A stretch of DNA of 45,940 nt from a virus: IMG/VR virus record IMGVR_UViG_3300031673_000104, positions 1 to 45,940 of that record; one strand, 5' to 3'. The translations under genes were made by a program, and so were the position numbers. Below the pieces are notes generated by a model that was not told where the DNA came from, did not search any database, and was given only the letters and a program-made list of their open reading frames with translations. Of this stretch, positions 1-39,920 are shown in pieces; within the stretch, counting starts at the first letter, position 1, and each line of letters begins with the position of its first letter.

Positions 1-155
1 GCGCAGTATAAGCCGTCCCGTCTTTCAGACCAATGTCTATCCCGGGGCCGCTATTTACTTTTGCCCATACCGAAAAGCGATAAGTGCCCGCCCCAACATT
101 CGCATACAGCAATGATGTCCCGAGAGAGTCGGGCATCTGCACGCGATATGCCGTG
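1..155. repeat. Left copy of 155-bp terminal direct repeat
   Basis: Bases 1-155 match 45786-45940 in the same orientation with three differences (window positions 16, 45 and 130). The repeat lies inside a coding region, and joining the two ends through it gives a 607-codon gene with the frame preserved. This is what a circular or terminally redundant genome looks like when assembled linearly. The three mismatches suggest a mixed population or read errors rather than a single exact overlap. Confidence 0.85.
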
Positions 156-2508: not shown

Positions 2509-5193
2509 CTATGGCGCCGTCACGGCAGTAATTAATCCGTTGACTACGGTCACATTGTTGCCGTCGCCGTTCGTGAAACTCCCAGACCAGCAGCCAGTGA
2601 TATCCGCCGTACCGTGCTGGTGGGAGGATGGCGCCTTGCCGCCCAGTTGTGTCTGAATGGCCGATGTGACTCCCGACAAGTAGCCAAGCTCAGTGTCCGT
2701 CGCTGCGGATGCAGTGAGATCCTTGTCGGCGTTCAGATAGACTGCCCGGTTCGCGGTCTCATTGTCGAGCCTGATCGTGTCATCCTCAATCAGCACTAGG
2801 CCGGAAATTCTGAGCGCCTCCAGTGCTGCTGATCGTTCAACTACATTGATTCCGATCCAACGATCAACGAGCAGATCCCCATCTTTTGAGATCTGCACCA
2901 TGATATCGCCGGACAGGTTCCGAGTTCTAAAGACCGGCTCGGTGCTCTGCGCCGATGTGGTTTCGCAGGTCAACTGAGCATAGGTGGAGTTGTCCAGGAC
3001 ATCTATCGTGAGTTGAGAAAATGAAGCATTGCCTGTGTTCCAGATTTTGGCCCTTGTGACAGGGGCTTCCGGATTAGCAAAATCGTCAATCTGAAACACG
3101 GGAGTGGATGTTTGGTTCGCGTGGCCGTTTCCGCGAATGTGAAAGAATGTCGGAGCGTCGTCAGGGTCGGGGTTATAGATGATCAGAGAAATCATCTGCT
3201 TGATGAGGTCGCCGACTTTCTTCCAGCCGGTATCACCGGTCCCGGCCGCTTTTACGTAGAATGTCTGGTCGCCAGATGATGCCCTAAGATAAATCGATCC
3301 GCCGACGGCCGTGATGGCTTCCTCTGGGTCGTCTACGCCAAATGCGATGCGGAGTTTTGATGTTCCGAACTGGATAAGGCCGGTCTCCTCGTCGATTGTA
3401 GTCGTGTCGGTGGCTGTATCTTCCTGAGCGATCCAGAATCGTTCGCCCACGCGCAATGATTTGTTAATCCAGACGTAGCCCTTCGGGAATTGGACATACC
3501 TCACCGTTCCGTCGGCGCGATCCACGACCAGCCAGTTCTCGGTCACGTCATGGGCTGCGTTGACTACGTTTCCAACTAGCTGTCCATACCCATCAGGATC
3601 GGGGCCAGCATTCACATATAGGGAAAATTCAGCTTCATCCACCGGTGCCAGAAGACTACGGAATACGATGGAGGGGTAGTCTGATTCCAACCTTAGTCGT
3701 GCCTGTTTGGCCGGAGATTGCTGCGTTGCTTCGTAAATGTGGACTTGTGCGAGAGGGTTGCCAATGTTCCAACTCAGGTAACCATTCTCCGAGTCCCAAA
3801 ACAACACGTTCCCGGTAGAATTAAATTCCGTCTCTCCGGTGTGCCAGCGCATCTCAAGGGGGAAGAGCTTTTTGTTCCCCCCGGTTGCTAGATCATACAT
3901 CTGACCGCTCACGGCCAAAGACGAACACCAGTTCCCGGACCATGTGTTCGAATGATAATCGTATCCCGACGAACTGGTATCGACAAATCCGTTCTTCAGA
4001 TGGTAGTCAATCGGTGTAGTCGCCTCAATGCGGTTTCCCTGGAATGTGTTTCCAACCCCTGAATTGACGAACCCATCATGGAGTCCGTCGCCGTCGCGGC
4101 TACAGTTGATAACCGTGTTTCCGATCACGATGCTGCGGCCAGCGAGAATCTTAATTCCTTCTCTGGCATTCAGATCAGCACGGTTTCCTATCAGGCGGTT
4201 AGCGAACGAACGAGCCGTCACAACCAGCCCGACCTCTGCCTGAGCGCATTGATTGAAGGCCACGAATCCGTTAGCGTAGTTGATACAAAGTGCCGCTATG
4301 TACCCGTCCGTCGTCGTGGCAGGACCGACGAAATTCGAGTTGATGTTGTTGTAGAGGACGATGCAATCCGTTACTCCGATCTGGAATACTCCGATGTAGT
4401 CAGACCGCCCCGAGTGGACGAGCATCGAATTCTGAGCGAAGTTGTGCGCGACGTGGCAGGTTGCACCACCTTCCAGATTGATCGCGGAATCTCCGAATAG
4501 ATCGAAGAAACAATGCTTGACGGTGAAGTCCCTGGAGTACTGGGAGTAAATTCCCATCGACCCACTATCTGGAGTGCCCTGAACTCCCAGCATTTCGACG
4601 GTTACACCATTTGTTGTGACGGCCGGATAGCCAGGGTCTGGCGTCGCTAACACTGGAACGGCGGCGATGCACGTCACCATGGATGGAGCGTCGATGAGCG
4701 CAGAACCATAAGTGCTCGCCATCGCGTAGTTCTCGCCGCACAGCCGGATGTTGTCGTAGAGGGTCACCGAACCGCTTGTCAGATAGTGGCCCCGCGGAAT
4801 GAAGATGACGCCGCCGCGATTACTGCCGGCTGCCAGAATCGCATCGATCGCGCCCTGAAATGCCGTGGTGTTGTCTGTCCCGTACCGTGTAAACGCATCC
4901 GAGACAGTAGTTCCAGCGGCGGCGGTTAACTCAACTTCGGTCCCGCTCGTCACGCTGGCAATGGTAGTCACGAGCGTTACTCCGGCCGCGCCAGCGCCTA
5001 CAACCCCGATCGCCTTGCCAACATCCGCCGAAGTGAATGACGCAGATACGGATGTGAACGTGTAGTCGGCTACCGTGATCGCTCCGTCTTCCAGGACGAT
5101 ACAATCACCAGCCGCCCCGAAATCCTTGACAGACGGGAATTCTCCGAGCTTGTCATTCAGTGTACGGGTTTGCGAGTTTTGGTATGAAGTCAT
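2509..5193 (-). CDS. Tail spike with pectate-lyase-like beta-helix
   Basis: 894 residues. The frame extends upstream to a GTG at 5265, but ATG at 5193 overlaps the stop of the preceding gene as TAATG, the coupling used by several neighbours, so I choose 5193. The N-terminus carries the classic spike entry motif FPSVKDFGAAGD. A right-handed beta-helix-type region (about residues 90-400) follows, with repeated short N/G turns, as in Pectate_lyase_3 family spikes. The C-terminus has a Gly/His segment (HQHGTADITG) typical of fibre ends. Likely binds and possibly degrades host polysaccharide. I did not identify catalytic residues. Confidence 0.85.
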   Translation of the reverse strand: MTSYQNSQTRTLNDKLGEFPSVKDFGAAGDCIVLEDGAITVADYTFTSVSASFTSADVGKAIGVVGAGAAGVTLVTTIASVTSGTEVELTAAAGTTVSDAFTRYGTDNTTAFQGAIDAILAAGSNRGGVIFIPRGHYLTSGSVTLYDNIRLCGENYAMASTYGSALIDAPSMVTCIAAVPVLATPDPGYPAVTTNGVTVEMLGVQGTPDSGSMGIYSQYSRDFTVKHCFFDLFGDSAINLEGGATCHVAHNFAQNSMLVHSGRSDYIGVFQIGVTDCIVLYNNINSNFVGPATTTDGYIAALCINYANGFVAFNQCAQAEVGLVVTARSFANRLIGNRADLNAREGIKILAGRSIVIGNTVINCSRDGDGLHDGFVNSGVGNTFQGNRIEATTPIDYHLKNGFVDTSSSGYDYHSNTWSGNWCSSLAVSGQMYDLATGGNKKLFPLEMRWHTGETEFNSTGNVLFWDSENGYLSWNIGNPLAQVHIYEATQQSPAKQARLRLESDYPSIVFRSLLAPVDEAEFSLYVNAGPDPDGYGQLVGNVVNAAHDVTENWLVVDRADGTVRYVQFPKGYVWINKSLRVGERFWIAQEDTATDTTTIDEETGLIQFGTSKLRIAFGVDDPEEAITAVGGSIYLRASSGDQTFYVKAAGTGDTGWKKVGDLIKQMISLIIYNPDPDDAPTFFHIRGNGHANQTSTPVFQIDDFANPEAPVTRAKIWNTGNASFSQLTIDVLDNSTYAQLTCETTSAQSTEPVFRTRNLSGDIMVQISKDGDLLVDRWIGINVVERSAALEALRISGLVLIEDDTIRLDNETANRAVYLNADKDLTASAATDTELGYLSGVTSAIQTQLGGKAPSSHQHGTADITGCWSGSFTNGDGNNVTVVNGLITAVTAP

Positions 5194-8100
5194 TAACTGT
5201 AGGCTATTTGGATCATTTGGGAACCGACGTTTCCAGGCTTCCCGAATAGGTAAATCTCGCGCCACGGGTTGAATGCCTCGGCCGATTCTCGACCGGATCT
5301 GTCGATCATCGCTACCTCGCAGACGAGAGTCGTCAACAAGAAATTGTCAACAGGAATTGAGATGAAGACGTTTCCCCCGGATGAATCAGCGAGTTTCTGT
5401 ACCACTGAGGAATAGAGTGCGTTTACTGATTCCACTACGAACACAGAGGTATCATCTGGGGTCGTTTCCCACGGCTCATCGATAGTCAAGACAGTGGAAG
5501 TATTCGATGCAATTCTCCGCCGCTGTCCGGAGCCAGTCCCATGAACAATCCGGGCCATCCTGCCCGTCTCTTCATTAACCGTCATGCCGGCTGGATAGCT
5601 GGCATTCTCGAACTTCGCATCTCCAATCGTGGTTGAACTGTAGGACGTAGCCTCAGTCCGGATGATGAGAGCATCCCCAATTTCGACTCCCATGGATTCA
5701 GGGTCTGGAGAGACCGTGAATGATTCGGTAGTGTTGGCGGAAATCAGGAAATTCCAAACCGGCGCCGATCCATCACTTTCATCGGAGATAATAGTGATGA
5801 TTCTTCCAATCCACTCGCCAGGAGTCCAGCCAGCACCAGCGCACACTAGGGTATCTGTGGACACTCCAGTAATTGCCAAACCATCCACTCCGGCATGAAA
5901 CGAATAACGCACCCGCGCCACCATTTCCTTTAGAGTTGGATGCGGAACAGTTGTAGTACGCACATTCGACAACGCCGTCAGATCGATGCTGCTCGGTTGC
6001 GTAGAGTCTTCATCTTGCACGGACAACAATCTGTGATCAGCGGATGCGTACAGTCGATAGCCGATTGTTCCAGCCGGCCAACCGATATCCCCCAGCGTAA
6101 TCTTGTTCTCATTGCCGCTCGTTCCCACAGCGATATTCACTGGCTGTGACAGCAGCGTTTGGTGACCGTCCGAATTAACTGCTGTCAGTGCGATCGTGAC
6201 GTGTTCTCCGGCGGCAATGGTTCCGCCAGCATCTGCGATGGAATAGCTTCCGATGACGGATCCATTGACGGCCAGCATCGCGGTATCAGGGTATCGTCCG
6301 GACACTACGAGTTTTGAGAGTTGGCTTCCATCTGCCATTTCTTCAAAGGTCTGGCTTAACCCGAATTGCCAGTCCGTTTGAGCAAAGAACGGATCAGCGG
6401 AGTCTGGCTGTTCAAGGTAAGGAAACCAAGGCTGAACAGGAATGACATCTATAATGCGCTCATCAGGTACCGGGCTGGGCGTAACGTCCGCCGGTTTCGG
6501 CCCGACAGTCAGGTCATACATGCTGTCCGTCGTCGAACGGCCCTCGATGACAATCGAATAGTCCGGATTCAGCCGCCATCGCAGGACCCGGAACTCGCCG
6601 GCGCCGCCCGGCATCTCGTCATCGGTCAGTGAGCAAACCATGCCCGGCTCAACTGCTAGGGCCAGAATGGTGGTTCCGAAGGCAACCTGACGCGCGGCCT
6701 TCCACTCCGCCGCCGAGATGCCGCCGATCTCTTCCCTGAGCCGGGTCGTCACAATGCGGGCTGCCTGAGACATGCCGGCCACGCCCACCAGGTTCATCTG
6801 GCTCTTCAGCCATTGTGGGCCCGTGGCAGTGCCCACGAATTTCGCGTGATCGATATCGCCTATGGAAATTGTGTTCGGCTTCCATTCGAAGTCCGCGTCG
6901 CCGTAGTTGCCAGAGATGTGGTTGAATCCAGGCCGGATGCTGGCCAACTGGAGAGAATCAAGGATGATGTTCCCGGCGGTGAATGCCTCCACCGCACTGG
7001 AATTCGACCGAATGCCGATTTTCAGCTTGCCGTTGGATTGGACGTAATATCCCAGGCAGCTATTCAAAATCTCCTGAAGCCAGTCCCTGAGCGGGCGGCG
7101 GTCCGAGATCACGCCGCGAAAGACAAACTGCGTTTCACTTCCCGAGCCGATGATCACCGGAACGGACGTAGCGCAAATCGCCGCCGCGGCCTCCGCCGAA
7201 TCCACATCGAAAACGGTCTCCTGAGTGGCAGCCACCGCCGCAAAGATTCCCTTGGCCTTCAGAACCGCGTTCACGGCGATCCATACCGGATTGGTGAGCC
7301 CGCTCTGCCAGGAGCGTGTCCCACTCGTCCATTTCCAGCCACCCAAACCGGACGAAACCCACGCCTGTATCTGGTGTTCCGTGATCCTGGAGAGCTGTAG
7401 CCCTTCCGGATCTGTCCTACGGATTTCCACGAATGCCACACCCGCCGCGCGGTCGCCAGTGAACCCCCCGCCAACCGCGGAGATGCTGAACTCGTCGGAG
7501 TCCGCGTCCGGGTCGCTGTTCTGAACCGGATCATGCCCATAGGATCGACGGAGCCCGTAGGGAAGCGGCCCATGAGCCGGCTGCCCATCCAATCGGTGCT
7601 TGGTTCCGTCCGTCGCATAGCCGCTGATAGGACCCTGCCCAACGATGCCGAGTGCGGAGTAAAATTCGGATTCTTCCCGCCCGGCCGCCAGTTGGCAGTT
7701 CACCGGCATGTCGGTATCCGTGTAGATCTCCTGAAGCGGCTGGCCGTAGATGGAATCAGAAACCAAGGACACAGAGGAAATCGCCCGGCGCCCGATTCCC
7801 CAAAGCCCGGAAGAGTTGTCTTTGATCCGGACGGACTGCGGACGCGCCACCACGCCGCCGAAATAGGCGTCCATACTCCGGGCCTGGCACTGAGTCCACG
7901 ATTTGTCGCAATCCGTTTCCACGCCGCCAACAACCGACGTGTAAGGGCAGTTCACACCGTCGTCAAAATCCTTCCAACAGGAACGCTCAATCGTCCGGAC
8001 CGGGTAATCGAGCGTCAGTTCGTAAATCGAATCCGAACACTGAACCGTGAACTCCGGGCCCTCCGAACCGGAGAAGCTGACTACCTCCCCGGTCCACAGA

Positions 8101-21090: not shown

Positions 21091-21283
21091 GTTTCCTCCG
21101 GAATACGATCTGCGTCTGATTGCCGGGCGCCGGGCCAACAGCTACGACATCCCACCCGAGATCGGCGTGAGCCTGAATTCGGTCAGGCCGGGCCGGGCCA
21201 TCATTGACCAGGACGTCGTAATCGAATCCAGGCAATGCTTGTGTCGTAACGTTCGGCTTCCGAACCGTAGTGCTTTTGCTCAT
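21062..21283 (-). CDS. Small hypothetical protein between terminase and gpW
   Basis: 73 residues from ATG at 21283, which overlaps the terminase stop (ATGA). C-terminal half (HADLGWDVVAVGPAPGNQTQIVFRR) has a compact alpha/beta look. It overlaps the start of the gpW-like gene by 29 bases. Position corresponds to short proteins between large terminase and joiner in lambda-like phages. Function unknown. Confidence 0.6.
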   Translation of the reverse strand: MSKSTTVRKPNVTTQALPGFDYDVLVNDGPARPDRIQAHADLGWDVVAVGPAPGNQTQIVFRRKRGVHSDPTR

Positions 21284-23220
21284 GATGAGAACCAATTCTC
21301 CCCGCCGGCGATCCATTTCTTTTCTGGCTTTGGTTTCGCTGGCTTCTTATCTCCTAGCCCGGCGACGACGCGCTCCTCTGCCATCCGCCGAAACCGATCG
21401 ACTTCCTGATTCAGCCGGAAAGCTGTGAGCGTCGTCAGTCCGACCAGCGCCGCATAGTTGTAGTTCCGGCAATCGAGAGACTCATTCCGGATGCCCTTTG
21501 TTTTTTTCTGCCAGGAGAACTTTGGCACGGGCCCGGTATAGTCCGGCACCCTGACCTCAGAGGTGAGCATTTCGAAGTAATCTCGGTCTCTCCCGGCCGG
21601 GAAATGACAGTACCCCGGGCCAGGTTCCACGATCTTGAGCCTCGAGTACACCGTCTCTTTTGCCGCATCGACGCCGATAACAACCGGCGCCGGGTACTTG
21701 CTCCGCCCTTGGCGCCCGCGCTTCGTTGGCCAGACGGCCCGATCACCGGCCCGGCCGATAATCGCCCATATCCGGCGGCCCTGTCGTTCCCCGCAGAACT
21801 TCCGGACGGTCTCTTTCTGAAAGCCAGCATCGATGCAGCCCGCGCGGATCGACAGCGGGATGCCGAGCTCGCTCAGCCATTCCCCCTTGAGCCAGTTGTC
21901 CAATTGCTCCCAGGCGGACGGGTGATCCGGATCAGTCGTAGTCAGCCTGGATGTGTCCCCCACGAACACGCGGTAGTCGATCGACCATGACTCCTCATCT
22001 GTTCCCCATCCGAGTAGCTCGGCTTCGATACGATTCCCCTGGATGTCCACCCCCGCGGTGAGCACACCCACGCCAGCCGGCAGCTCCGGACCGTAGGATT
22101 CACGCCTGGCCATGAGGGTATCCGCATCGGCTTTCGCATCAGTCGGGTCTTTGTACGGCTCTCCGCATTTCAGGTTGATAAACGTCTTTCGCTTGACCGG
22201 ATCCCGATGATTACGTTCCCAATCCTCGGCAACCGCCGGCCAGGCGTTCCCGGGCCAACCATAGGGATAATATAGGGCGTTGATGGCGTAAGACGTAACC
22301 TTAATTCGGCCACGGCCATTTTCGGGAGCTCGCGGTACCCACACACCGGACCCGAGAATTTTAGTCTTGACCCACTCTTCGAACCGTTCCCGGCATTTCC
22401 CACATTCGTACCGGGCCAGGTCAGGAGATCCGGCCGGCCACTTCAATCCTCCGGTGAGCCCCTCTTCGGCGAAGATAGATTTCTCAGAGAAGAGCAGCGG
22501 CTGCATGTGGCCGCAAGATGGGCAGGGAACATGGTAGAGATTCTGATTGCCACGATTGAACCAATAGCTGATCTGGCTGAACTCTTCAAGTGTAGGAGTG
22601 GAAACGAGATATGCCTTTTGTCTCGCGTAAGCGGCAAGGCGTTGGAGGAAGAGGTCCAGGGATCCGCCCTCACCGTCCAAATCGAGCGGATAGCCATCGA
22701 CCTCATCGGCCATTCCATAACGGCAGGGGTTGGACCTAAGATCTGCAGCAGAGTTTGCACCGGTGAGAATCAATTCATCGGCGCCGAACTCTTTTCTGTC
22801 GATCGTATTGGACCGATCCCGGGAACGTTTCGGGGCAACCTTCTCACGAAGCCGCGGCGTCGCCTGAATCATTCGGTCGATACGGCTCGATGTCCGGCGA
22901 AGGGTTTTGGTTGTAGGAGTGACCAGTAGCGCCGAATCCGGGTACATGTCCATCCAGCAGCCGAGAGCGTTGTAGCCGATCTCAGTGCCTGCCCCCTGGG
23001 CCGCTTTCATCAGCACGACGATATGGACCGGAGATTGCGGAGACAGATCGTCCATGATTTGCGCTGCATAGGGAACCCGCTCGGTGCGCCACGGTCCCGG
23101 CTCCGGGCTGGGCTTCCCGACGATGCGGTAGCGGTCGGCCCACTGAGAGACAGTGAGATCAGGCTCCGGCCGAATCCCGGCTGCGAAGGCGGAGCTACAG
23201 ACTGATGCTGCCGTCGCCAT
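21280..23220 (-). CDS. terL: Terminase large subunit, GpA family
   Basis: 646 residues from ATG at 23220, which has GGAGG nine bases upstream; the frame extends to 23307 but that part overlaps the small terminase. The N-terminal LTVSQWADRYR and SPEPGPWRTERVPY are the GpA (Phage_GPA, PF05876) signature. A degenerate Walker A, KAAQGAGTE, lies at residues 72-80 and an acidic box ADEVDGYP near residue 180. A CPSCGH...ECGKC zinc pair lies mid-protein as in lambda gpA. The nuclease part is C-terminal (GVDIQGNRIEAELLGWG). ATP-driven DNA packaging and genome cutting. Confidence 0.93.
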   Translation of the reverse strand: MATAASVCSSAFAAGIRPEPDLTVSQWADRYRIVGKPSPEPGPWRTERVPYAAQIMDDLSPQSPVHIVVLMKAAQGAGTEIGYNALGCWMDMYPDSALLVTPTTKTLRRTSSRIDRMIQATPRLREKVAPKRSRDRSNTIDRKEFGADELILTGANSAADLRSNPCRYGMADEVDGYPLDLDGEGGSLDLFLQRLAAYARQKAYLVSTPTLEEFSQISYWFNRGNQNLYHVPCPSCGHMQPLLFSEKSIFAEEGLTGGLKWPAGSPDLARYECGKCRERFEEWVKTKILGSGVWVPRAPENGRGRIKVTSYAINALYYPYGWPGNAWPAVAEDWERNHRDPVKRKTFINLKCGEPYKDPTDAKADADTLMARRESYGPELPAGVGVLTAGVDIQGNRIEAELLGWGTDEESWSIDYRVFVGDTSRLTTTDPDHPSAWEQLDNWLKGEWLSELGIPLSIRAGCIDAGFQKETVRKFCGERQGRRIWAIIGRAGDRAVWPTKRGRQGRSKYPAPVVIGVDAAKETVYSRLKIVEPGPGYCHFPAGRDRDYFEMLTSEVRVPDYTGPVPKFSWQKKTKGIRNESLDCRNYNYAALVGLTTLTAFRLNQEVDRFRRMAEERVVAGLGDKKPAKPKPEKKWIAGGENWFSS

Positions 23221-23782
23221 CGCCAACCACCTCCCAATGCCGTTTTTCAATTTCATCCGCAACTCTGGAGTCCGCTTCCCGAAGAGCGGTCCGTACCATT
23301 TCCTCAATTTCGATGGGGTCGGTCTTTCCTACCAGCTTTGGGCCCAGGTTCGTGGGCAGACTCTCCCGAGCCGAGGCGTGCATTCGTCCAATTGCGTAGA
23401 ACGTTTTCTTGACATCGATCGCCGAAAGGACCTCCCGGGATTCCTTCCGATATTTGAGCTCGGCCAGGTCCGCTTCAGCTTTTTCTCTCCGAGCCCGCGC
23501 GTCGGAGTAGCTCTCTCCATCGACGACGTCGACCGTCTCTGCAGGTTCTCGTTTTGGCTTGCCCTTCGATTTGGCTGCTGCCTTTGCATCTGGTTTCTGC
23601 TCAGGTTTCGCCGGCGCCGAGTTACGCCCCCAGGCCCGGTCACATTTGGCAAAGTTGAGCGATCCATCGGATTCAGCCGTAATCCTTCCAGTTGCAATCG
23701 CCTTGCGAACAGCAGTATGACTCCCACCGGGACGTCCGTCCGCTTTGCGGTGTCTGGCATATGCCCGGATCGATCCATTCAT
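23195..23782 (-). CDS. terS: Terminase small subunit (Nu1-like)
   Basis: 195 residues. N-terminal basic HTH-like region (YARHRKADGRPGGSHTAVRKAI, about residues 8-30) for binding the packaging site. A Lys/Ala/Pro-rich linker (about residues 55-85) and a C-terminal helical domain follow that should contact the large subunit. Overlaps the large terminase start by 26 bases. Two 12-bp direct repeats sit just upstream of its start codon. Confidence 0.8.
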   Translation of the reverse strand: MNGSIRAYARHRKADGRPGGSHTAVRKAIATGRITAESDGSLNFAKCDRAWGRNSAPAKPEQKPDAKAAAKSKGKPKREPAETVDVVDGESYSDARARREKAEADLAELKYRKESREVLSAIDVKKTFYAIGRMHASARESLPTNLGPKLVGKTDPIEIEEMVRTALREADSRVADEIEKRHWEVVGDGDGSISL

Positions 23783-24153: not shown

Positions 24154-24415
24154 AGGATGGGTGTCCGCGCCCTACTCGCTGGGAGCCGGGCTATTGCCCG
24201 GAGGTTGCCGTTTCGCTGACGTGTTCAGACTCGAACATTCTACAGCCGTAGCTGATGCTTGACATCCCAATCATGGCATAGAACAGAATCACCGTCAAAT
24301 GTTTCTGATCCGCCCGAGCGGGATGTGATAGGATACATCCGCTCGCCTTTAACCGGGTGAGCCCCGGCGCCCTGCTGATGCTTGACAACCTCACTGGGCG
24401 CCGGGCAGACAGCAA

Positions 24416-24649
24416 ACCGGATCACAAACCGGATAGTCTCCGCAGAAATCCAACCAGATCAGCGCTGCCTAGAGGTCTGCAAAACCTTTATTCGCCGGTT
24501 CGATTCCGGCCCGCGCCTCCAACAACTTACCGTATTATCAACACTTTCCATCATCATACTCATTCACTGCCGATCACTCTGAATCGGCGAAGAGACATCG
24601 AAACTGAAACAACCGACCGGATCACCAACCGGAACAGTAACCGGATCAC
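24416..24649. repeat. ACCGGATCAC direct repeats flanking attP core
   Basis: Exact copies at 24416-24425, 24616-24625 and 24640-24649, with partial copies (AACCGGA type) at 24427-24433 and 24627-24633. They bracket the tRNA-like core at roughly 50 bp and 95-120 bp, the arrangement of integrase arm-type sites. Their role is inferred from position. Confidence 0.6.
24472..24521 (+). other. attP core: 3' half of a tRNA-Cys (GCA)
   Basis: Starts with a 5-bp anticodon stem GAGGT/ACCTT around loop CTGCAAA (anticodon GCA at 24479-24481). A T-arm GCCGG-TTCGATT-CCGGC (24494-24510), the acceptor 3' strand CCGCGCC and an encoded CCA (24519-24521) follow. There is no matching 5' acceptor strand or D-arm upstream, so this is not a working tRNA. 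It is the identity segment by which integration restores the 3' end of a host tRNA-Cys gene. It lies ~320 bp from the integrase stop, as expected. Confidence 0.85.
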
Positions 24650-24838: not shown

Positions 24839-25894
24839 TCACCCCCCCACCACCTTCAGCGCCGGCCGTAGCAGCTTCTCGTAGCGCTCCATCGCGGCCC
24901 GCCTATGCTGCGCTGTCGGGTGGACATACCTCATGACCATCCGCAGGCTCGAATGCCCCAGGATGGCCGCCAGCGTCGGTAGATCGCACCCTGATTCCGC
25001 CATCCGCGTCGCGAACGTGTGCCGCAGATCGTACATCACGAAAGACACCCCGGCCGCCCGACAGACCTCATAGTGTTGACCGTTGAGCTTTGTTAGATGC
25101 CGGCCAGGATACCGCGGCGAAGGAAACGCCCACCTGTCCGGTGTCTGCATCCGGCGCCGGAAGATAGAAATTGACTCCCCCATCAGATCCAACGTCCGCC
25201 GAGCTGCTCGGCTCTTCCCGCCGCGGATGTGCAACTGCCCGGCGTCAAGATCGATGTCATCCTGCTCGAGCGACATAATCTCTTCCGGCCGGCAGCCCTG
25301 CAGCAGCATCAGCCGGGTAACGTCATGCAGAGTTGGCTTCCTGGAAGCCGCACAGAAATAAGCCCGCTCTTCATCCGCCGCAACAACATGGATCCGGATT
25401 GCATCCTCATCGGACGGGATTGTCACTTCCTTTACCGGGTTCGTCTCACACCAGCGGTGTTTCAGCACATATTTCCGGTAGAACAGCGAGAGGTTACTCA
25501 GATCGTGTCGGAGCGTGATGTCCCGGACCCCATGCTCAGTGATCCGCCAGGCCTTGTAATCGTCGACGTCGCCCGGGGTGATGTCTTTCACCAGGCGGTC
25601 ACTAAAGAACGCCACCAGAGACGAAAATGAAGTCCTGATTCTCTTCGCCGTGTTCTCTTTCCGCCGGTACTCCACATCCCGGCACCAAGAGACGAACGTC
25701 GCCGCCGCCTCACTGAATCGTGATGATTCGATCGCGATTTTCCGCTCGGCAAACTCCGCCCGCTTCTGTTCCGCAATCCGTTCCGCCGCGCTCGCGTTTC
25801 GTTTCGTGGCGGCCAAACCGGTGCTTCGCCGATATTCTTTCCCGTCGACCCACACCCGGTAATACCACCGGCCGCCGCGCGCTTCTATTCCCAT
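24839..25894 (-). CDS. int: Tyrosine-type integrase
   Basis: 351 residues from ATG at 25894, which follows AGGAAGGAG at seven bases; the frame extends to 26035 but that overlaps the upstream HTH gene. Residues 1-30 form an AP2-like beta arm-binding domain (GGRWYYRVWVDGKEYRRST). About 60-150 is the core-binding domain. The catalytic domain has Arg202 (CRPEEI), YDLRHTFAT (288-296, box II with Tyr in place of the usual first His), His314 (ILGHSS) and the nucleophile Tyr323 (MRYVHPT). Catalyses integration at the adjacent attP. Confidence 0.95.
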   Translation of the reverse strand: MGIEARGGRWYYRVWVDGKEYRRSTGLAATKRNASAAERIAEQKRAEFAERKIAIESSRFSEAAATFVSWCRDVEYRRKENTAKRIRTSFSSLVAFFSDRLVKDITPGDVDDYKAWRITEHGVRDITLRHDLSNLSLFYRKYVLKHRWCETNPVKEVTIPSDEDAIRIHVVAADEERAYFCAASRKPTLHDVTRLMLLQGCRPEEIMSLEQDDIDLDAGQLHIRGGKSRAARRTLDLMGESISIFRRRMQTPDRWAFPSPRYPGRHLTKLNGQHYEVCRAAGVSFVMYDLRHTFATRMAESGCDLPTLAAILGHSSLRMVMRYVHPTAQHRRAAMERYEKLLRPALKVVGG

Positions 25895-26090
25895 TCTCAG
25901 GCTCCTTCCTCTGGAGCATCGATTGTAACCATTCTTCCACCTGACATTCCGGGTATAGAATGTTTCGGCCCAATTTGAGCCACCCCGGGCCCTTCCCCTC
26001 GCTCCGCCAATTGGCGAGCGTGCGCACGTCGACACCAGCCAGCTCGGCGAGCTGTTCCGGCGTGAGACGGCGTTGGGAGAGGAGTTTCAT
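25710..26090 (-). CDS. Excisionase-like HTH protein overlapping integrase
   Basis: 126 residues; ATG overlaps the stop of the upstream gene (ATGA). Residues 1-60 are a MerR/excisionase-type helix-turn-helix (LTPEQLAELAGVDVRTLANW, then GRNILYPECQVEEWL). Residues 64-126 are arginine-rich and overlap the integrase gene by 185 bases in another frame, so that tail may be non-functional. Typical Xis proteins are ~70 residues. Likely directionality factor or integrase regulator. Confidence 0.75.
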   Translation of the reverse strand: MKLLSQRRLTPEQLAELAGVDVRTLANWRSEGKGPGWLKLGRNILYPECQVEEWLQSMLQRKEPENGNRSARRPVVLPGVGRRERISAKHRFGRHETKRERGGTDCGTEAGGVCRAENRDRIITIQ

Positions 26091-26959
26091 TCAGATTCAA
26101 AGCCCGGCACTTCCAGCCATTGGCGGCCATCCAACTCCGGTTTCTTCACCAGCCGCCCGCCAATCATCATCTGTTTCAGGAAGAATGGCACTTCAGTGGC
26201 TTCGGCCTGATCTCTCAGCGAGCGAATGTGACTGATCTCGGTTGGCCTGCATTTGGTGCCGGATTCACAACCGGCGATTGCCCAGCCAAGCCCTCTCGGT
26301 ATTTCTTCTCTACAGAGGTGGTGATCTCCGTTGATCGCTTGATCTATCCGGCTGTAACCGCAGGCCTGACAATGAGGCACGAGCCACGGTTTCAGGTCCA
26401 ACTCCCCAAACAGAGGCTCACAGGAGGCGAAGTACAGAACCGCCCCCGCGCATCGGAAAATTTTTGGGATCTGATCATCCGCCGTCACCTGACTCCCAGC
26501 CGTGGCTCCGTACCAAACATTCGCCGGCGGCCCGTCACCCCACCCGATCTCGTCAAGCATCCGCGGCGCGTTCTCCCAGCGCTTCGAAAGCAGCATCCAA
26601 ATCAGGCACGGAGTCTCTTCCACTAGCCGCGCCCAATCCATCCTCCACTGCGGATCGACGGTCCGGTGATCGTCCCAAATATCGCTCAGCGAGTTGACGA
26701 AGACGCGCTCCCGGATTCCGGTTCGCGCCGCCCTTCGGTTCCACTTCCGCGGCTCTTCCAGCCGGTACCGCTCGGAATTAGGCACCCTCTCCGCTTGCGG
26801 TCCCCACCCGATGCCATGGAGTTTGACTGAATAGTCCCGCTCCGCATAGCAGTGGAAGCATTCCGAGGCCACCTGGCCGTTGTCGAGGACCTTTTTAGTA
26901 CAGCCCCGCCAGATGTTGTGGGTGTGATGACACCACTCTATCTTGCTGTTTTCAGCCAC
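26087..26959 (-). CDS. Phage Gp37/Gp68 family protein (DUF5131-like)
   Basis: 290 residues from a GTG at 26959 with GGAGG six bases upstream; the frame extends further but that overlaps the preceding gene. The N-terminal SKIEWCHHTHNIWRGC and ECFHCYAE are hallmarks of the Gp37/Gp68 family (PF07505), proteins with a radical-SAM-like cysteine arrangement. A second cysteine group (HCQACGYSRID) lies near residue 200. Biochemical function not established as far as I know. It sits between replication and integration genes. Confidence 0.85.
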   Translation of the reverse strand: MAENSKIEWCHHTHNIWRGCTKKVLDNGQVASECFHCYAERDYSVKLHGIGWGPQAERVPNSERYRLEEPRKWNRRAARTGIRERVFVNSLSDIWDDHRTVDPQWRMDWARLVEETPCLIWMLLSKRWENAPRMLDEIGWGDGPPANVWYGATAGSQVTADDQIPKIFRCAGAVLYFASCEPLFGELDLKPWLVPHCQACGYSRIDQAINGDHHLCREEIPRGLGWAIAGCESGTKCRPTEISHIRSLRDQAEATEVPFFLKQMMIGGRLVKKPELDGRQWLEVPGFESE

Positions 26960-27500
26960 GGTCGGCCTCCTTTGGAATCTTCGTGTATGCCGCCCGGGCG
27001 GCATGAGAAATCCGCGAACACTCATCCTCATCAATCATTTGTGCGCTGTTTCGGTGTGCGATCCAGGACAGCGTAGAATCCGCGTCCACCAGGATCGGAC
27101 GCACGGCCAGCAATTGGGAGGCAAGCCGGTCGCGGTCGGCCTCCAGTTCCGCGATGCGGGTGGCCTGGCAGTCTCGCGCAGCTACAAGCTGGCAAATGGC
27201 TTCGTCGAGAAACTGGCCTTCTTCCCGTGAGCCTATTGCCGTCCATGCGCTCGCGAGCATCTCTTCGTGGCAGTCGAGTTGAGCCTCAAAGTCCGCTGTC
27301 CGCTCTCGCCACGCCTTGGCCCAATCTGCCAAGCTGCAATCTTCCGGCAGCACAGCCGCCTGTTCCTCTTGGAGTGCTTCCAGTTGGGATTCGATGAGCT
27401 TTGAACGTGCGCCCATCCGCTCCACCACCCGCGCAAACGATTTCTTTGATTCCAGCAGTTCGACGATACGCTGCTCCAGTTCCGCGATTTGTTCCGCCAT
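26952..27500 (-). CDS. Coiled-coil hypothetical protein
   Basis: 182 residues, ATG overlapping the dnaB stop (TGATG). Long heptad-like helices (residues 1-60 and about 100-140) rich in Glu, Gln and Ala. Three Cys (DCS, DCH, DCQ) without a metal pattern. No catalytic motif. Co-transcribed between DnaB and the Gp37/Gp68 protein. Function unknown. Confidence 0.65.
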   Translation of the reverse strand: MAEQIAELEQRIVELLESKKSFARVVERMGARSKLIESQLEALQEEQAAVLPEDCSLADWAKAWRERTADFEAQLDCHEEMLASAWTAIGSREEGQFLDEAICQLVAARDCQATRIAELEADRDRLASQLLAVRPILVDADSTLSWIAHRNSAQMIDEDECSRISHAARAAYTKIPKEADRG

Positions 27501-29024: not shown

Positions 29025-29852
29025 TCACCGCTCGCCCTCCACCACGTCCGGCTCGTACAAATCCGCAAACGGATCCGGCGGGCTGGCGCCAGACGCACCG
29101 TTCCCAGGGGGAGGGTCTTTCCGGCCGATCCGGATCCACTCGTGAAGTTTTGGAGCAAACCTGCCACCCTCTTTCCGCCAGTCCTCACTCGCCGCAAATG
29201 CAGCATGCCTCCGCTCGATTTCCAGGGCCTCCCCGATCATCCGATCCGCCGGCAGTTCCGTGAGCACATCCGTCCAGGTTTGCTCCGCCAGAATCTGAAA
29301 CAGTTTTTTCGGGTGACGGTCCCACACCCGTTCGAAAATCTCCGCCAGCATTCGGCCATCCGCCGGCTCGCGCGCGTCGTCTCCGTCTCCGTCTCCGTCT
29401 CCGTCTCCGTCTCCGTCTCCGACTAGGCCGTCATCGCGCGGGCATTCCGCCGTCATCGCGCGGGCCTCGCGCGGGCATTCCGCCGTCATCGCGCGGGCAT
29501 CGCGCGGGCATTGCGCGGGAAACTTGCTGTCACCGCGCGTGCGCTGTCGGAAGTTGTTGATCTGTAAGTATTTTTTTCCTTCCACCACATACACAGTGAC
29601 CAGGGAGACATCGCCCTCAGAGGTATGAAAAATTTGCGTACATACTGACAACCAGTCTGATATGTCGTCATCCCGGACACGATCGAGCTGCATCGGGTAG
29701 CAGTTGGCCCGCAGGAGAGTCGGATGAGCGAAAAACCGGCCGTAATCATCCACCACGGACATCAAACGGCGGTAGAAAAGCTCCGCCATGGGAGGCAATT
29801 TGTTGACCGCCTCACTCGAAAGAATTCCGTCTCTCAGCATCCTGGTTGGCAT
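29025..29852 (-). CDS. Replication initiator-like protein with internal repeats
   Basis: 275 residues. N-terminal RMLRDGILSSEAVNKLPP with YRRLMSVVDDYGRF is the winged-helix region common to phage replisome organisers. The middle holds an 11-residue repeat (CPRDARAMTAE, CPREARAMTAE, CPRDD), then an acidic Gly-Asp run of eight pairs. The C-terminal helical part (about residues 165-250) looks DnaD/DnaT-like. Placed directly before dnaB, as lambda O stands before P. Its internal DNA repeats may be the origin, again as in lambda O. Confidence 0.78.
   Translation of the reverse strand: MPTRMLRDGILSSEAVNKLPPMAELFYRRLMSVVDDYGRFFAHPTLLRANCYPMQLDRVRDDDISDWLSVCTQIFHTSEGDVSLVTVYVVEGKKYLQINNFRQRTRGDSKFPAQCPRDARAMTAECPREARAMTAECPRDDGLVGDGDGDGDGDGDGDDAREPADGRMLAEIFERVWDRHPKKLFQILAEQTWTDVLTELPADRMIGEALEIERRHAAFAASEDWRKEGGRFAPKLHEWIRIGRKDPPPGNGASGASPPDPFADLYEPDVVEGER
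29379..29420. repeat. (GTCTCC)7 hexanucleotide repeat
   Basis: Seven perfect copies of GTCTCC on the plus strand, encoding Gly-Asp repeats (GGAGAC) on the minus strand inside the initiator gene. Perfect tandem identity at the DNA level suggests slippage expansion. It directly abuts the 11-bp phased repeats. Confidence 0.9.
29423..29521. repeat. 11-bp phased iteron-like repeats in the initiator gene (candidate origin)
   Basis: Blocks of exactly 11 bp follow each other. Type A, TCGCGCGGGC(A/C), starts at 29434, 29456, 29467, 29489 and 29500, with a variant at 29511. Type B, TTCCGCCGTCA, starts at 29445 and 29478, with a related block at 29423. Eleven bp is about one helical turn, so all blocks face the same side of the helix. 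The array lies inside the replication initiator gene, as the lambda origin lies inside gene O. An origin role is inferred. Confidence 0.65.
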
Positions 29853-29857
29853 CGTTT

Positions 29858-30856
29858 TCAGCTTTTCAGCGCCATCAGCCCCTCATGATCATCAGCCAGT
29901 GCGAACTCAATCTGATCACCAACTCGTTTCTCAGCCACCGCCGCCTTCAAGTTCTTTTCTGCTTGCCGGTAGTAGCTCGGCTTCAGTTCTATGCCGATTC
30001 CGAGGCGCTTGGCGAGCACGGCGGCGTAGACTTCGGAACCGACGCCCATGCACGGCGTAAGCACCTTCTCGCCGGGATTGGACCATAGCACGAGCGCCCG
30101 GTCGATCACGTCAAGCTGCAATGGGTGGCAGTGTTTCTCGTCGTCCTGGTCCCGTGCCGGCCGGAATGGGAGCACCCGATCGAGGCGCACATCGTCCCAA
30201 AATGCGGAGGCGTACTGTCTCCAGATCCAATGAGAGTATCGGTTTTCAATCTGATTTCCCTTCCAGTTTCGATACGGGATAAGATCGGTCGGGATCGTTC
30301 TTGAGCCCGAGTACTCGGTCAGACCTCTAGGATGCGCCACTGGTACTGGATTGGATCCGGAACGCCTGAAGATCAACAGATAATCGGCGTTGGCGATCGA
30401 GCACCGGGTCGAATCAATCGTCACCCCTTTGTGACTCAGGCTTTTCGTCATGGTGCGATTGCGGACAGTGAGGGGTTCCTTCCAGACGTGATACCGGGCC
30501 ACGTAGGACCAGCCGAGCTTTTGATGGAGTTTGATCACGTCGCCGGAGAAGTCCGTCAGATGATCGAGCCCAGTGTTTCCGGTCGGGATGTCCATGCAAT
30601 GCACGGCCGTCATCCTGCCCGGCATCGTGAGCCGGTGAATATCCCTGACCATGAATTCATAGTGGAGAAAGAACTCGTCATAGTCCAGGCAGTTGCTCAG
30701 ATCCCGTTCATCCGAGCTGTAGTGGTAGAGCCCGCCGAATGGAGGCGAATAGATCGACAAGTGGATTGAACGATCCGGGAACGTCGGCATAATATCCATG
30801 GCGTCGCCGTTGTAGATCGCGTACCGGTCGGTGATGATCTGCTCGATTACAGCCAC
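29858..30856 (-). CDS. DNA methyltransferase (N4/N6 type)
   Basis: 332 residues from a GTG at 30856 with GGAGG seven bases upstream, overlapping the helicase stop by 10 bases. The catalytic motif SPPF lies at residues 37-40 and the AdoMet-binding motif TPCMGVGSE near residue 265, the motif IV-before-I order of beta-class enzymes. The Ser in SPPF, in place of Asp, is typical of N4-cytosine methylases. Likely modifies phage DNA against host restriction. No matching nuclease is encoded nearby. Confidence 0.88.
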   Translation of the reverse strand: MAVIEQIITDRYAIYNGDAMDIMPTFPDRSIHLSIYSPPFGGLYHYSSDERDLSNCLDYDEFFLHYEFMVRDIHRLTMPGRMTAVHCMDIPTGNTGLDHLTDFSGDVIKLHQKLGWSYVARYHVWKEPLTVRNRTMTKSLSHKGVTIDSTRCSIANADYLLIFRRSGSNPVPVAHPRGLTEYSGSRTIPTDLIPYRNWKGNQIENRYSHWIWRQYASAFWDDVRLDRVLPFRPARDQDDEKHCHPLQLDVIDRALVLWSNPGEKVLTPCMGVGSEVYAAVLAKRLGIGIELKPSYYRQAEKNLKAAVAEKRVGDQIEFALADDHEGLMALKS

Positions 30857-33318
30857 TTCGGCACCTCCGTCGCTGTCTGAGCGTTGTTCGTTCGTTTGAT
30901 TTTCATTGAGTCATTCATGTGTTTCACAAGTTCAGCGAACATTTCAGTCGCCGCCGCCGCCTTCCTCATCATATTTTCCCGGACGTATTTCTCGCCGGTC
31001 GTTGCTACAATATCAACCGTGACGGGCTTCTCCTGACCGAACCGCCAGCACCTCCTCACGCTCTGATAGAACTGCTCATACGAGTGGGTGGCGAACGTCA
31101 CTACATGGTTGCAGTGCTGCCAGTTGAGGCCCCAGGCACCGATTTTAGGTTTTATGACAAGCACCCGGACCTCGCCAGCCGCGAACGCGCGGTAGGCTTC
31201 TTCTTTCGCATTGTCCGATGTTGAACCCTTGACCTGTACAGCGTCCGGTATCGCCTTTTCGAGCTTGTCTCCCTCGATATTCAGGTGACACCAGACAACT
31301 GCCGGGCGGTCATGGTCAACCAATTCAGCCACCAATTCACACCGTTCCTCGATCGTCCGCCTCCGCTCATCCCGTTCCTGTCGGAGTCCGAGAGCCGGAA
31401 TAGTGAAGAGCATTCCGTCCGGTGGCGTCTTCGGTTCAATGATGTGGTTCCGTTCGACCAGTTCCGGCAGAATGAATTTCCCATCGTCGAACCCGAGATC
31501 AGACGGCGCCCGGCAAGCCCGCGCCCACGACGCCACCCACCGCCAAAATGGAACCTCCGCATGACCCTTCAATCTCCACTGGCCGATACTCTGGTGAACG
31601 CGATAGCTGAGCTTCTGGAAGTGGTTACCGTCCACCTCGCGCATGAGCTTCTCTTGCCTGCCTTGCCGCCATTCCTTGATCTCTTGCAATCGGTGAGGTT
31701 TGTTGTCGGTCTGCCGGAAAAACCGCGTGAGCATGTCACTGTGACCCAGTTCCCCGAGGGCTTCGGACGACGTACCGAGTTCGATGTAGTCGTTGGGCGC
31801 CGCCGTTGCCGTGCAGAGTAGCCGGTAGGGGATCTTCAGCATGAACCGTGTCACCGCCTTCTGTGTCGCACCTGAGAAGTGCTTCAGGATGCTGGACTCG
31901 TCGCACACCACAGCCCCGAAGTCATCCGGGCTGAAATGGTGCAGCTTCTCATAGTTTGTGACCACGATGCGGGCGCCGGGGTTGATCCCGCCGGCAGACC
32001 TCGAGCACTCAATCCCGAACTTTGCCGCCTCCCGTGTAGTCTGTTGGGCCACCGCAAGCGGGGTGAGAATCAGAACCGGCTTGTTTGTCTTGCGGACGAC
32101 GTTCTCAGCCCAGACTAGCTGCATTGGCGTTTTGCCAAGCCCGCAATTGTGAGACCATATACCGTCCGCTAGAAAACACTCAGTGCCTGGTACTTCAATG
32201 TCGAAATGTCGATCAAATCTGATATACTGGATTGCGACAAGTGTATCAAATTCTAGGAGTCTATCATATGCCGAGAACTGGAAGACCGAGAACTGTTGTT
32301 CTGCCGATGGAAGAGATTCGTGATCTAGCGGATCGCGGCTGGTGTTTGCGGGAACTTGCGGAAAAGTTTGGCTGTTCGCGCCAGTGCATGCTCGATCGAA
32401 TGAGAGAGGCCGGTATTCAGAGGTTGCCCCAATGGTCGCAACCGGGGATCCGCAATGGTCAATGGCGGGGCGGTCGTCAAGTGGATTCTGACGGCTATAT
32501 CTTGATTCATTGTCCGAATCATCCACACGCAAATGCGGCCGGATGTGTTCGCGAACACCGACTTCAGATGGAAAGACACCTCGGGAGATATCTGGAACCG
32601 GGAGAGGTCGTCCACCATACGGACGGAGACAAGACGAACAATCATCCGTCAAATTTACGTCTGTTTCAGAGGAACGCTGACCACCTCCGCCACGAGCTAA
32701 AAGGCCGCACCCCAAATTGGACCGAAGACGGGAAACGTCGGATACGAGAAGGCGTTCGCCGATCGTCAGTAAACCGCCACGCTTCCAGCCGGACGCGCTC
32801 AAAAAGCGATGCCTCTTGCTCGCAATGATCTGTCGGCCAGATGCGAACATATACTGATACAGGTCGCCAACTCCGCTTATGAACGGTGCGCTTGCCGTCT
32901 TGATGCACGGCTGGCCGTTGTCGATCGAATAGACCCGCAGTGGTTTTCCGTCCCGATGGGCTCGTCCGATCTCAATATCCCCATCGGGAGAATTGATAAC
33001 TGATTCAGCCCCTAGACAGTCGGCGAAGATTGCCGCCCGGCCCTTGACCAGCGCCCACTCAACGAGCGCCACTTGGAAGTCGAACAGGAAGTCCGGCATC
33101 CACAGCGGGGCAAAGCCATGCTCGGCCCCGTGCTGCATTTTGCGTTCGAGGAAATCTCGGTATTCCATTCTCATAAGCACTTCTTCCATCACCCAATCAT
33201 CCAGGCCGCGACGGGCTCCATCCACGTCCTCAGTCCCGAGCGGGTGCCCTTTGCGTGCCGCTTCAGACTGAATGTACGCTAAGCACTTCCGCTGCTCCGC
33301 CAGGATGCGCTCCATCAT
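30847..33318 (-). CDS. SNF2-like DEAD/H helicase interrupted by an intein
   Basis: 823 residues as translated; 532 after removal of a 291-residue intein (residues 101-391). The extein reads AAIFADC where the intein begins and continues CGLGKTPMQL, so the insertion is exactly at the Walker A loop. Further helicase motifs: VVCDESS (DEAD-box equivalent), LLCTATAAPND (motif III-like) and VRRCWRFGQEKPV (motif VI, SNF2 type). ATG overlaps the upstream stop (ATGA) with GGAG upstream. The helicase stays non-functional until splicing. It pairs with the methyltransferase downstream, a combination common in phage early regions. Confidence 0.9.
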   Translation of the reverse strand: MMERILAEQRKCLAYIQSEAARKGHPLGTEDVDGARRGLDDWVMEEVLMRMEYRDFLERKMQHGAEHGFAPLWMPDFLFDFQVALVEWALVKGRAAIFADCLGAESVINSPDGDIEIGRAHRDGKPLRVYSIDNGQPCIKTASAPFISGVGDLYQYMFASGRQIIASKRHRFLSASGWKRGGLLTIGERLLVSDVSRLRSNLGCGLLARGGGGQRSSETDVNLTDDCSSCLRPYGGRPLPVPDISRGVFPSEVGVREHIRPHLRVDDSDNESRYSRQNPLDDRPAIDHCGSPVATIGATSEYRPLSFDRACTGANSQTFPQVPANTSRDPLDHESLPSAEQQFSVFQFSAYDRLLEFDTLVAIQYIRFDRHFDIEVPGTECFLADGIWSHNCGLGKTPMQLVWAENVVRKTNKPVLILTPLAVAQQTTREAAKFGIECSRSAGGINPGARIVVTNYEKLHHFSPDDFGAVVCDESSILKHFSGATQKAVTRFMLKIPYRLLCTATAAPNDYIELGTSSEALGELGHSDMLTRFFRQTDNKPHRLQEIKEWRQGRQEKLMREVDGNHFQKLSYRVHQSIGQWRLKGHAEVPFWRWVASWARACRAPSDLGFDDGKFILPELVERNHIIEPKTPPDGMLFTIPALGLRQERDERRRTIEERCELVAELVDHDRPAVVWCHLNIEGDKLEKAIPDAVQVKGSTSDNAKEEAYRAFAAGEVRVLVIKPKIGAWGLNWQHCNHVVTFATHSYEQFYQSVRRCWRFGQEKPVTVDIVATTGEKYVRENMMRKAAAATEMFAELVKHMNDSMKIKRTNNAQTATEVPKWL
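32220..32228 (+). promoter_or_regulatory. Extended -10 promoter for the antisense HNH gene
   Basis: TGATATACT: a TATACT -10 hexamer at 32223-32228 with the TGn extension that can replace a -35 box. It lies 40 bases before the HNH start codon and within codons of intein block F on the other strand. No good -35 hexamer is present. Inferred. Confidence 0.5.
32268..32828 (+). CDS. HNH homing endonuclease, nested antisense within the intein
   Basis: 186 residues from ATG at 32268, with AGGAG (32255-32259) eight bases upstream; upstream in-frame codons are unlikely to be used. Residues 1-55 are an HTH (IRDLADRGWCLRELAEKFGC) like those of freestanding endonucleases. Residues about 80-145 form an HNH_3 nuclease domain (REHRLQMERHLG, then EVVHHTDGDKTNNHPSNLRL and ADHLRHEL: catalytic His, Asn and His present). 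The C-terminal ~40 residues are basic and overlap, antisense, the codons of intein block B. It is the only plus-strand gene between 24 and 40 kb. Confidence 0.88.
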   Translation: MPRTGRPRTVVLPMEEIRDLADRGWCLRELAEKFGCSRQCMLDRMREAGIQRLPQWSQPGIRNGQWRGGRQVDSDGYILIHCPNHPHANAAGCVREHRLQMERHLGRYLEPGEVVHHTDGDKTNNHPSNLRLFQRNADHLRHELKGRTPNWTEDGKRRIREGVRRSSVNRHASSRTRSKSDASCSQ

Positions 33319-39322: not shown

Positions 39323-39381
39323 AGGATTTCTTCCCTCACAATCACCGCCGCCACCGGCGCGCAGATCAAAGCCACGCCGGC

Positions 39382-39645
39382 TTATCCGTAGCCGGAGCCG
39401 GAGCCGGAGCCGTAGCCGGAGCCGGAGCCGGAGCCGTAGCCGGAGCCGTAGCCGGAGCCGGAGCCGGAGCCGTCGCCGGAGCCGTCGCCGGAGCCGGAGC
39501 CGGAGCCGTAGCCGTCGCCGTCGCCGGAGCCGTCGCCGGAGCCGGAGCCGGAGCCGTAGCCGGAGCCGTAGCCGGAGCCGGAGCCGTAGCCGGAGCCGTA
39601 GCCGGAGCCGTAGCCGGAGCCGTCGCCGGAGCCTACTCTTTCCAT
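39382..39645 (-). CDS. Gly-(Ser/Tyr/Asp) repeat reading frame, likely tail of the upstream gene
   Basis: 87 codons: MERV, then 41 dipeptides of Gly plus Ser, Tyr or Asp. The ATG lies within the end of the DUF6948-like gene (39633-39920), in the -1 frame relative to it. As I recall, members of that family often end in just such Gly-rich tails. So this is either a frameshift extension (programmed, or caused by an indel) or a coupled small gene. Confidence 0.55.
   Translation of the reverse strand: MERVGSGDGSGYGSGYGSGYGSGSGYGSGYGSGSGSGDGSGDGDGYGSGSGSGDGSGDGSGSGSGYGSGYGSGSGSGYGSGSGSGYG
39388..39633. repeat. 41-unit hexanucleotide array
   Basis: 246 bp of uninterrupted 6-bp units. On the minus strand every unit is GGC followed by TCC, TAC or GAC. 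Variation occurs only at the fourth or fifth base, changing the second residue among Ser, Tyr and Asp, while Gly is fixed at the DNA level. It resembles a slippage-prone microsatellite under protein-level constraint. Confidence 0.95.
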
Positions 39646-39920
39646 TCCGGCACCGCCTCAATCGATTTCATCGCAGCATCGCTCAACGGAAGAACTTCAA
39701 TGATTTCGGTCAGCTCAACGAAAGGAACGACTGGTGGAAACGTGCAGTTCTGCGGACGTTTTACCCCTTCATTCGCGAGCTGACTCAGGGTCGCCGCTCC
39801 ATCCCAATACCAGAGGCGTCGCGCGTTCTCTATGCGGCCTTCTTTGCCGTTACGCGAAACCAGTTTGCCAGCGAAGACGCCGGCTGAATATGTGCGTACA
39901 ATGCAGTTGATTTGTTCCAT
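39633..39920 (-). CDS. DUF6948-like phage protein
   Basis: 95 residues preceded by AGGA. INCIVRTYSAGVFAGKL, then ARRLWYWDGAATLSQLANEG and CTFPPVV match my recollection of DUF6948 proteins, a common phage family of unknown function. Ends VPEWKE at a TAG. In the -1 frame a long Gly-rich repeat follows directly (39382-39645), so the stop may be bypassed or due to an indel. Confidence 0.7.
   Translation of the reverse strand: MEQINCIVRTYSAGVFAGKLVSRNGKEGRIENARRLWYWDGAATLSQLANEGVKRPQNCTFPPVVPFVELTEIIEVLPLSDAAMKSIEAVPEWKE

Follow-up and report, generated by a model that had tools for sequence, protein, structure and literature searches.

A probable lambda-type attP overlapping the 3' part of tRNA-Cys(GCA) in a temperate tailed phage, most likely of Bryobacterales (Acidobacteriota)

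The attP of mycobacteriophage Pixie has a 47-bp core that overlaps a tRNA-Lys gene, with direct arm-type repeats on both sides, two to the left and three to the right; a sixth arm site is inverted, and related integrases use the same core with different arm sequences (PMC3203893). tRNA-Cys is a known, uncommon integration target, reported for Oenococcus (PMC8074189) and Pseudomonas (PMC2647930). In Oenococcus oeni, the IntE and IntG prophages have the tRNA-Cys 3' end as their attB, direct repeats on both arms have been proposed as sites for the integrase N-terminus, and the arm motif co-varies with the integrase N-terminus between IntF and IntB (PMC8074189). Our literature search, which was not exhaustive, revealed no report of tRNA-Cys prophages in Acidobacteriota.

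We analyzed a viral DNA stretch of 45,940 nucleotides (IMG/VR record IMGVR_UViG_3300031673_000104; hereafter the window). On sequence evidence, its positions 24251–24649 very probably include an attP at which a temperate tailed phage would recombine with the chromosomal tRNA-Cys(GCA) gene of soil Acidobacteriota, most likely of Bryobacterales. The locus is well supported as an attP of the classical lambda type located in a tRNA gene; the mechanism is familiar, and the host phylum has been little studied. The integration site of lambda itself is intergenic and not a tRNA gene, whereas the window phage very probably targets tRNA-Cys. The likeness to lambda-type arm-binding tyrosine recombinases lies in the protein family, an N-terminal domain preceding the SAM-like core-binding domain, and the arm repeats (PMC8138268). 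The locus resembles Pixie in its tRNA-overlapping core, its two left and three right arm repeats, and an arm sequence that varies among relatives; Pixie differs in its actinobacterial host, its tRNA-Lys target and its sixth, inverted arm site. With the O. oeni prophages it shares the tRNA-Cys 3' end target and direct repeats on both arms, but those prophages reside in a Firmicute host and have 11- or 61-bp cores. In contrast, prophage 05 of P. fluorescens Pf-5, also located in tRNA-Cys, is a defective 2.6-kb element with 84-bp repeats in a Pseudomonas host (PMC2647930).

The core spans 51 bp on the plus strand (24471–24521, AGAGGTCTGCAAAACCTTTATTCGCCGGTTCGATTCCGGCCCGCGCCTCCA) and corresponds to the 3' part of tRNA-Cys(GCA), from the anticodon stem (starting at AGAGGT) to CCA. 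It is read as A GAGGT CTGCAAA ACCTT TATTC GCCGG TTCGATT CCGGC CCGCGCC T CCA, comprising the anticodon stem, the GCA loop, the variable region, the T arm, the 3' strand of the acceptor, U73 and CCA. The preliminary description had recognized this tRNA part beside an integrase gene, and both are present (the integrase at 24839–25894). It had also named a complete tRNA structure as the observation that would speak against an attP; ARAGORN called no tRNA anywhere in the 45.9-kb window and hence no complete tRNA-Cys. Rfam likewise detected no tRNA in the window at the gathering score, the T-arm alone scoring weakly. When the host 5' half is joined to the window core, ARAGORN calls a normal 75-nt tRNA-Cys(GCA) from the chimera. 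Identity between the window and tRNA-Cys genes of Acidobacteriota begins at the anticodon stem and stops at or just past CCA (49–55 bp in total). As in an attP, the core is identical to the 3' end of the host tRNA and the whole tRNA is absent from the phage. Because identity starts there and an inverted AGGT/ACCT stem flanks the 7-nt anticodon loop CTGCAAA (loop 24477–24483; stem and loop 24473–24487, plus strand), strand exchange would take place inside the core, probably in or near this loop, with the crossover position predicted from the left identity edge in the window and its relatives.

The two ends of the window (1–155 and 45786–45940) are 98% identical, with 3 mismatches, and a 680-codon reading frame crosses the joined ends whichever end copy is used. 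This terminal 155-nt repeat and the frame through the junction show that the genome is circular, with a size of approximately 45,785 bp, and that the record is complete. A Laminin_G-type gene spans the junction. The core occurs once in this circular genome and therefore represents an internal attP rather than attL or attR. Terminase and structural genes (portal, capsid, TerL and TerS; terminase at 21280–23782) lie to the left of the core, and the integrase, DUF5131, DnaB and replication genes to the right. Partial tRNA copies are also carried by the far ends of prophages, such as that of genome G152 described below, and the contig might thus be a prophage fragment whose segment is an attL or attR with host DNA to one side. 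This reading is extremely unlikely, and we count it as already refuted, since phage genes occupy both sides (terminase on the left, integrase and replication on the right) and the contig closes on itself through the repeat with a continuous reading frame.

The tyrosine integrase gene (24839–25894, minus strand) encodes 351 aa from an ATG at 25894, within a longer GTG-initiated ORF that extends to 26035; it matches PF00589 (Phage_integrase, 1.6e-21) and phrog_1 (3e-57). As expected beside an attP, the gene ends approximately 318 bp from the core. The lambda-type catalytic pattern R..K..(H/Y)xxR..H..Y was read by eye in the ORF as QGCRPEE, GGKSR, YDLRHTF, LGHSS and MRYVH, with the first His of HxxR replaced by Tyr. 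An ORF overlapping the integrase start (25710–26090, minus strand) encodes an HTH_17 protein (PF12728, 1.4e-9), the likely excisionase (RDF) as judged from position and domain; its homologues precede int in G152 and in contig C228 of genome G008. Beside this xis-int-attP module lies a DUF5131 gene (phrog_2045; 26087–27034, minus strand), assigned by domain and phrog match. A similar-looking DUF5131-type protein, which was not scored, occurs near int on the otherwise different phage contig of G008 (L029, 10552–11526).

A search with the 351-aa integrase at E < 1e-35 yielded matches in 23 of the 257 genomes in the order of genome G001 (titled Bryobacterales), and many of these positions coincide with tRNA-Cys matches. 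The best match, at 57–59% identity, is found in G152, a genome of the same order. There, attL and attR are observed directly: the prophage is bounded by identical 49-bp repeats (AGGTCTGC...CCTCCA) 34.57 kb apart; an intact tRNA-Cys lies on the integrase side, and the opposite end carries a truncated copy. This prophage and the window phage are collinear, with identities of 56% for the tail, 38% for the capsid, 39% for the portal, 35% for TerL and 39% for the HTH_17 protein. IMG/VR 3300027965_000072 likewise carries the core near both ends, with an intact tRNA at one, so that the prophages of two relatives are bounded by the core as an attP predicts. In most other close matches, and in four of the five found in the order of G003 (titled Acidobacteriales), the integrase has a tRNA-Cys gene or fragment beside it. 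In most relatives, the core lies less than about 0.6 kb from the C-terminal end of int, on the strand opposite to int. The G152 ends and this adjacency bear out the proposal of the preliminary description that the site is the probable host integration site. Its further concern, that related prophages might be integrated at another locus, applies to the more distant relatives only, as the close ones are nearly all at tRNA-Cys. Exceptions are a tRNA-Ser (G134), a tRNA-Arg (G043 C304) and several more distant integrases without a recognized tRNA; the tRNA-Cys target is not fixed across the wider integrase family. The collections searched hold no integrated copy of the window phage itself, the nearest being the 57%-identical integrase.

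Since phages can carry decayed tRNA genes, the fragment might have been passively retained from a captured tRNA gene and not be a recombination site. We regard the chance of this as negligible: the same fragment bounds the integrated G152 prophage as the 49-bp repeat, adjoins homologous integrases in many genomes, and keeps its position relative to the arm repeats.

In a tree of 27 integrases, the window protein pairs with that of G152 (99/96) and most deep forks stay open. The tRNA-Cys users form no single supported clade, and we therefore do not claim a single origin of tRNA-Cys targeting. The integrases of G232 (L063) and IMG/VR 3300027965_000072 (L111) group together in the tree (100/99) and, unlike all the others, flank the core on its other side. 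G008 C228 and IMG/VR 3300050015_000312 carry the core beside the integrase without an intact tRNA. G008 C228 was considered as the same phage and rejected, because, although it has the integration module and a DnaB in common with the window, the head genes are not shared; it represents another phage. Loci L061 (G139:C240) and L113 (G348:C47) have apparently identical tRNA-Cys/right-arm sequences, although their genomes are assigned to different orders, which would reflect either a contaminated bin (G139 is 12.1 Mb) or a transfer in the very recent past. Locus L089 (G205:C5) contains three tRNA-Cys 3' cores within approximately 5 kb, one of them called within a tRNA-Leu; a single tRNA gene may carry stacked insertions or remnants here.

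The core is flanked by five repeats that we infer to be integrase arm-type sites bound by the Int N-terminal domain. The left (P) arm holds two putative sites on the plus strand (24415–24437), ACCGGATCAC at 24416 and ACCGGATAGT at 24428, located 58 and 46 nt before the core start, counted to GGTCTG at 24474. The right (P') arm holds three (24615–24649, plus strand), at 24616, 24628 and 24640, with a 12-bp period and at 95, 107 and 119 nt after CCA. On both strands of the whole window, ACCGGATCAC has three exact copies (24416, 24616 and 24640), and degenerate copies at 24428 and 24628 complete the 12-bp-period arrays. The preliminary description had counted three ACCGGATCAC copies flanking the core; these exact copies stand, and the array is extended to five sites. 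Matches to AACCGGATCAC with at most 2 mismatches number six in 400 bp, versus an expectation of 0.19 based on the remainder of the window (p ~6e-8). As in lambda-type attP sites, a short motif is repeated on both arms, with exact copies absent elsewhere in the genome.

The spacing of these sites recurs in relatives with other motifs. Whereas the arm sites of the window are ACCG-motifs, G152 carries the motif ACCGTAGCA, with copies starting 58 and 46 nt ahead of the core as well as 107, 119, 131 and 143 nt after CCA; the left distances are equal and the right-hand register is kept despite the different motif. The 58/46 left pair is repeated, with motif ACCGTAGCA, in IMG/VR 3300029625_000050. 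Arm-site distances are identical in the window, G152 and L106, but the sequence differs. In IMG/VR 3300050015_000312, ACCGACCTCAG occurs in tandem with an 11-bp period on both arms. A test for 11- or 12-bp tandem repeats at 60–170 nt after CCA in 17 loci gave a combined p of 9e-11 for the right arm, and 1e-8 when the window and G152 were left out; these values are rough, as the loci are not fully independent and five of them (G014, G054, G138, G043 and G206) gave no significant arm repeat by this simple test. Constant distances combined with a changing sequence would be expected if the sites were bound by an integrase N-terminal domain that co-evolves with them. We consider it somewhat probable that the integrases represent an old acidobacterial lineage, in which the tRNA-Cys core and the helical spacing of the arms are kept while the arm sequence diverges repeatedly with the integrase. 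The ACCGGATCAC repeats could alternatively be repressor operators or terminator stems, in which case the core would still be an attP. They do pair into weak hairpins with a terminator-like score on the minus strand, and operators can be direct repeats. However, the repeats occur on both sides of the core in one orientation with a 12-bp period, and relatives with a changed motif retain the distances, which makes this alternative improbable and favors arm-type sites.

Further repeats are found farther left than the arm sites and upstream of the structural genes that run leftward. The window contains just two exact copies of GCTGATGCTTGACA, both on the plus strand: at 24251–24264, possibly as an operator near a promoter of the leftward structural operon, and at 24374–24387, in the loop of a hairpin. 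By our own estimate, ~1e-3 exact repeats of 14 bp are expected by chance in a span of about 700 bp. This hairpin (24363–24405) is formed by the inverted repeat CCCGGCGCCC/GGGCGCCGGG (24363–24372/24396–24405; DNA fold z −3.8), and an imperfect inverted repeat, GAGCGGGATGT...ACATCCGCTC, is found at 24315–24345 (z −2.7). Promoter-like sites on the minus strand (24298–24270 and 24265–24237) are consensus matches only. The GCTGATGCTTGACA pair and the inverted repeats could be operators of the leftward structural operon. Within the 300 bp of the G152 left arm examined, there is no GCTGATGCTTGACA-like pair. The GCTGATGCTTGACA copies and hairpins that had initially been assigned to the attP are real, and we leave them unassigned rather than counting them in the recombination site.

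Elsewhere in the window, a phage helicase gene (30847–33318) matches the intein-splicing family PF14890 weakly at residues 151–391, with a score below the curated cut-off, and possibly holds an intein. Tandem 11-bp and 6/12-bp repeats at 29378–29542, within a putative replication initiation gene, are possibly origin iterons or low-complexity coding sequence. A 12-bp tandem repeat unit is present in about 20 copies at 39335–39693, and a pectate-lyase/beta-helix protein (2509–5265) is probably a tailspike depolymerase.

For host assignment, the 45 bp running from the anticodon loop through CCA were searched as an exact match in 84,980 species genomes and found at 12 loci in 11 of them. Nine of these genomes belong to Acidobacteriota, mostly Bryobacterales (titled Bryobacterales, Bryobacteraceae, Acidobacteriales, Paludibaculum or Acidobacteria), and two to Puniceicoccales; most of the host genomes are MAGs. 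At 10 of the 12 loci, ARAGORN recognizes an intact tRNA-Cys(GCA); the remaining two (L005 and L011) are truncated copies. Among the 257 genomes in the order of G001, the exact core is present in 7, the core with at most 3 mismatches in 103, and relatives of the major capsid protein in 27 (E < 1e-60). The search of tRNA-Cys 3' segments proposed in the preliminary description for finding the host phylum thus points to Acidobacteriota, and the host is most likely a member of Bryobacterales. A Puniceicoccales (Verrucomicrobiota) host for the same attP, which the exact core in two small-genome MAGs would allow, is very unlikely: 103 genomes of that order yielded no integrase relatives, in a search without a positive control, and the integrase, the capsid protein and a whole collinear prophage are all found in Acidobacteriota. 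A distant blastn search against phage records gave no match, and the best tblastn match of the integrase (~29%, Pseudomonas phage D3 group) is uninformative on the host. IMG/VR scans with the integrase as a single protein and with the exact core gave no match, and a scan with a degenerate core gave five contigs.

We propose that the tyrosine integrase bridges the tRNA-derived core and its five arm sites and catalyzes recombination between attP and the tRNA-Cys(GCA) gene of the host chromosome, with the HTH_17 protein presumably acting as the excisionase and a host DNA-bending protein possibly being needed. The phage core, identical in sequence, would take the place of the 3' part of the host tRNA, thereby rebuilding a functional tRNA-Cys on the integrase side and leaving a truncated copy at the opposite end of the prophage. 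The attP and its integrase could serve as a tool for chromosomal integration in Acidobacteriota. The related att sites, in which spacing is conserved and arm motifs diverge, make arm-binding specificity comparable and, if the integrases do represent an old lineage with co-diverging arm sequences, would constitute a natural series for reading that specificity. Combined, the attP and prophage tests provide a firm host phylum, and probably an order, for an uncultured temperate phage.
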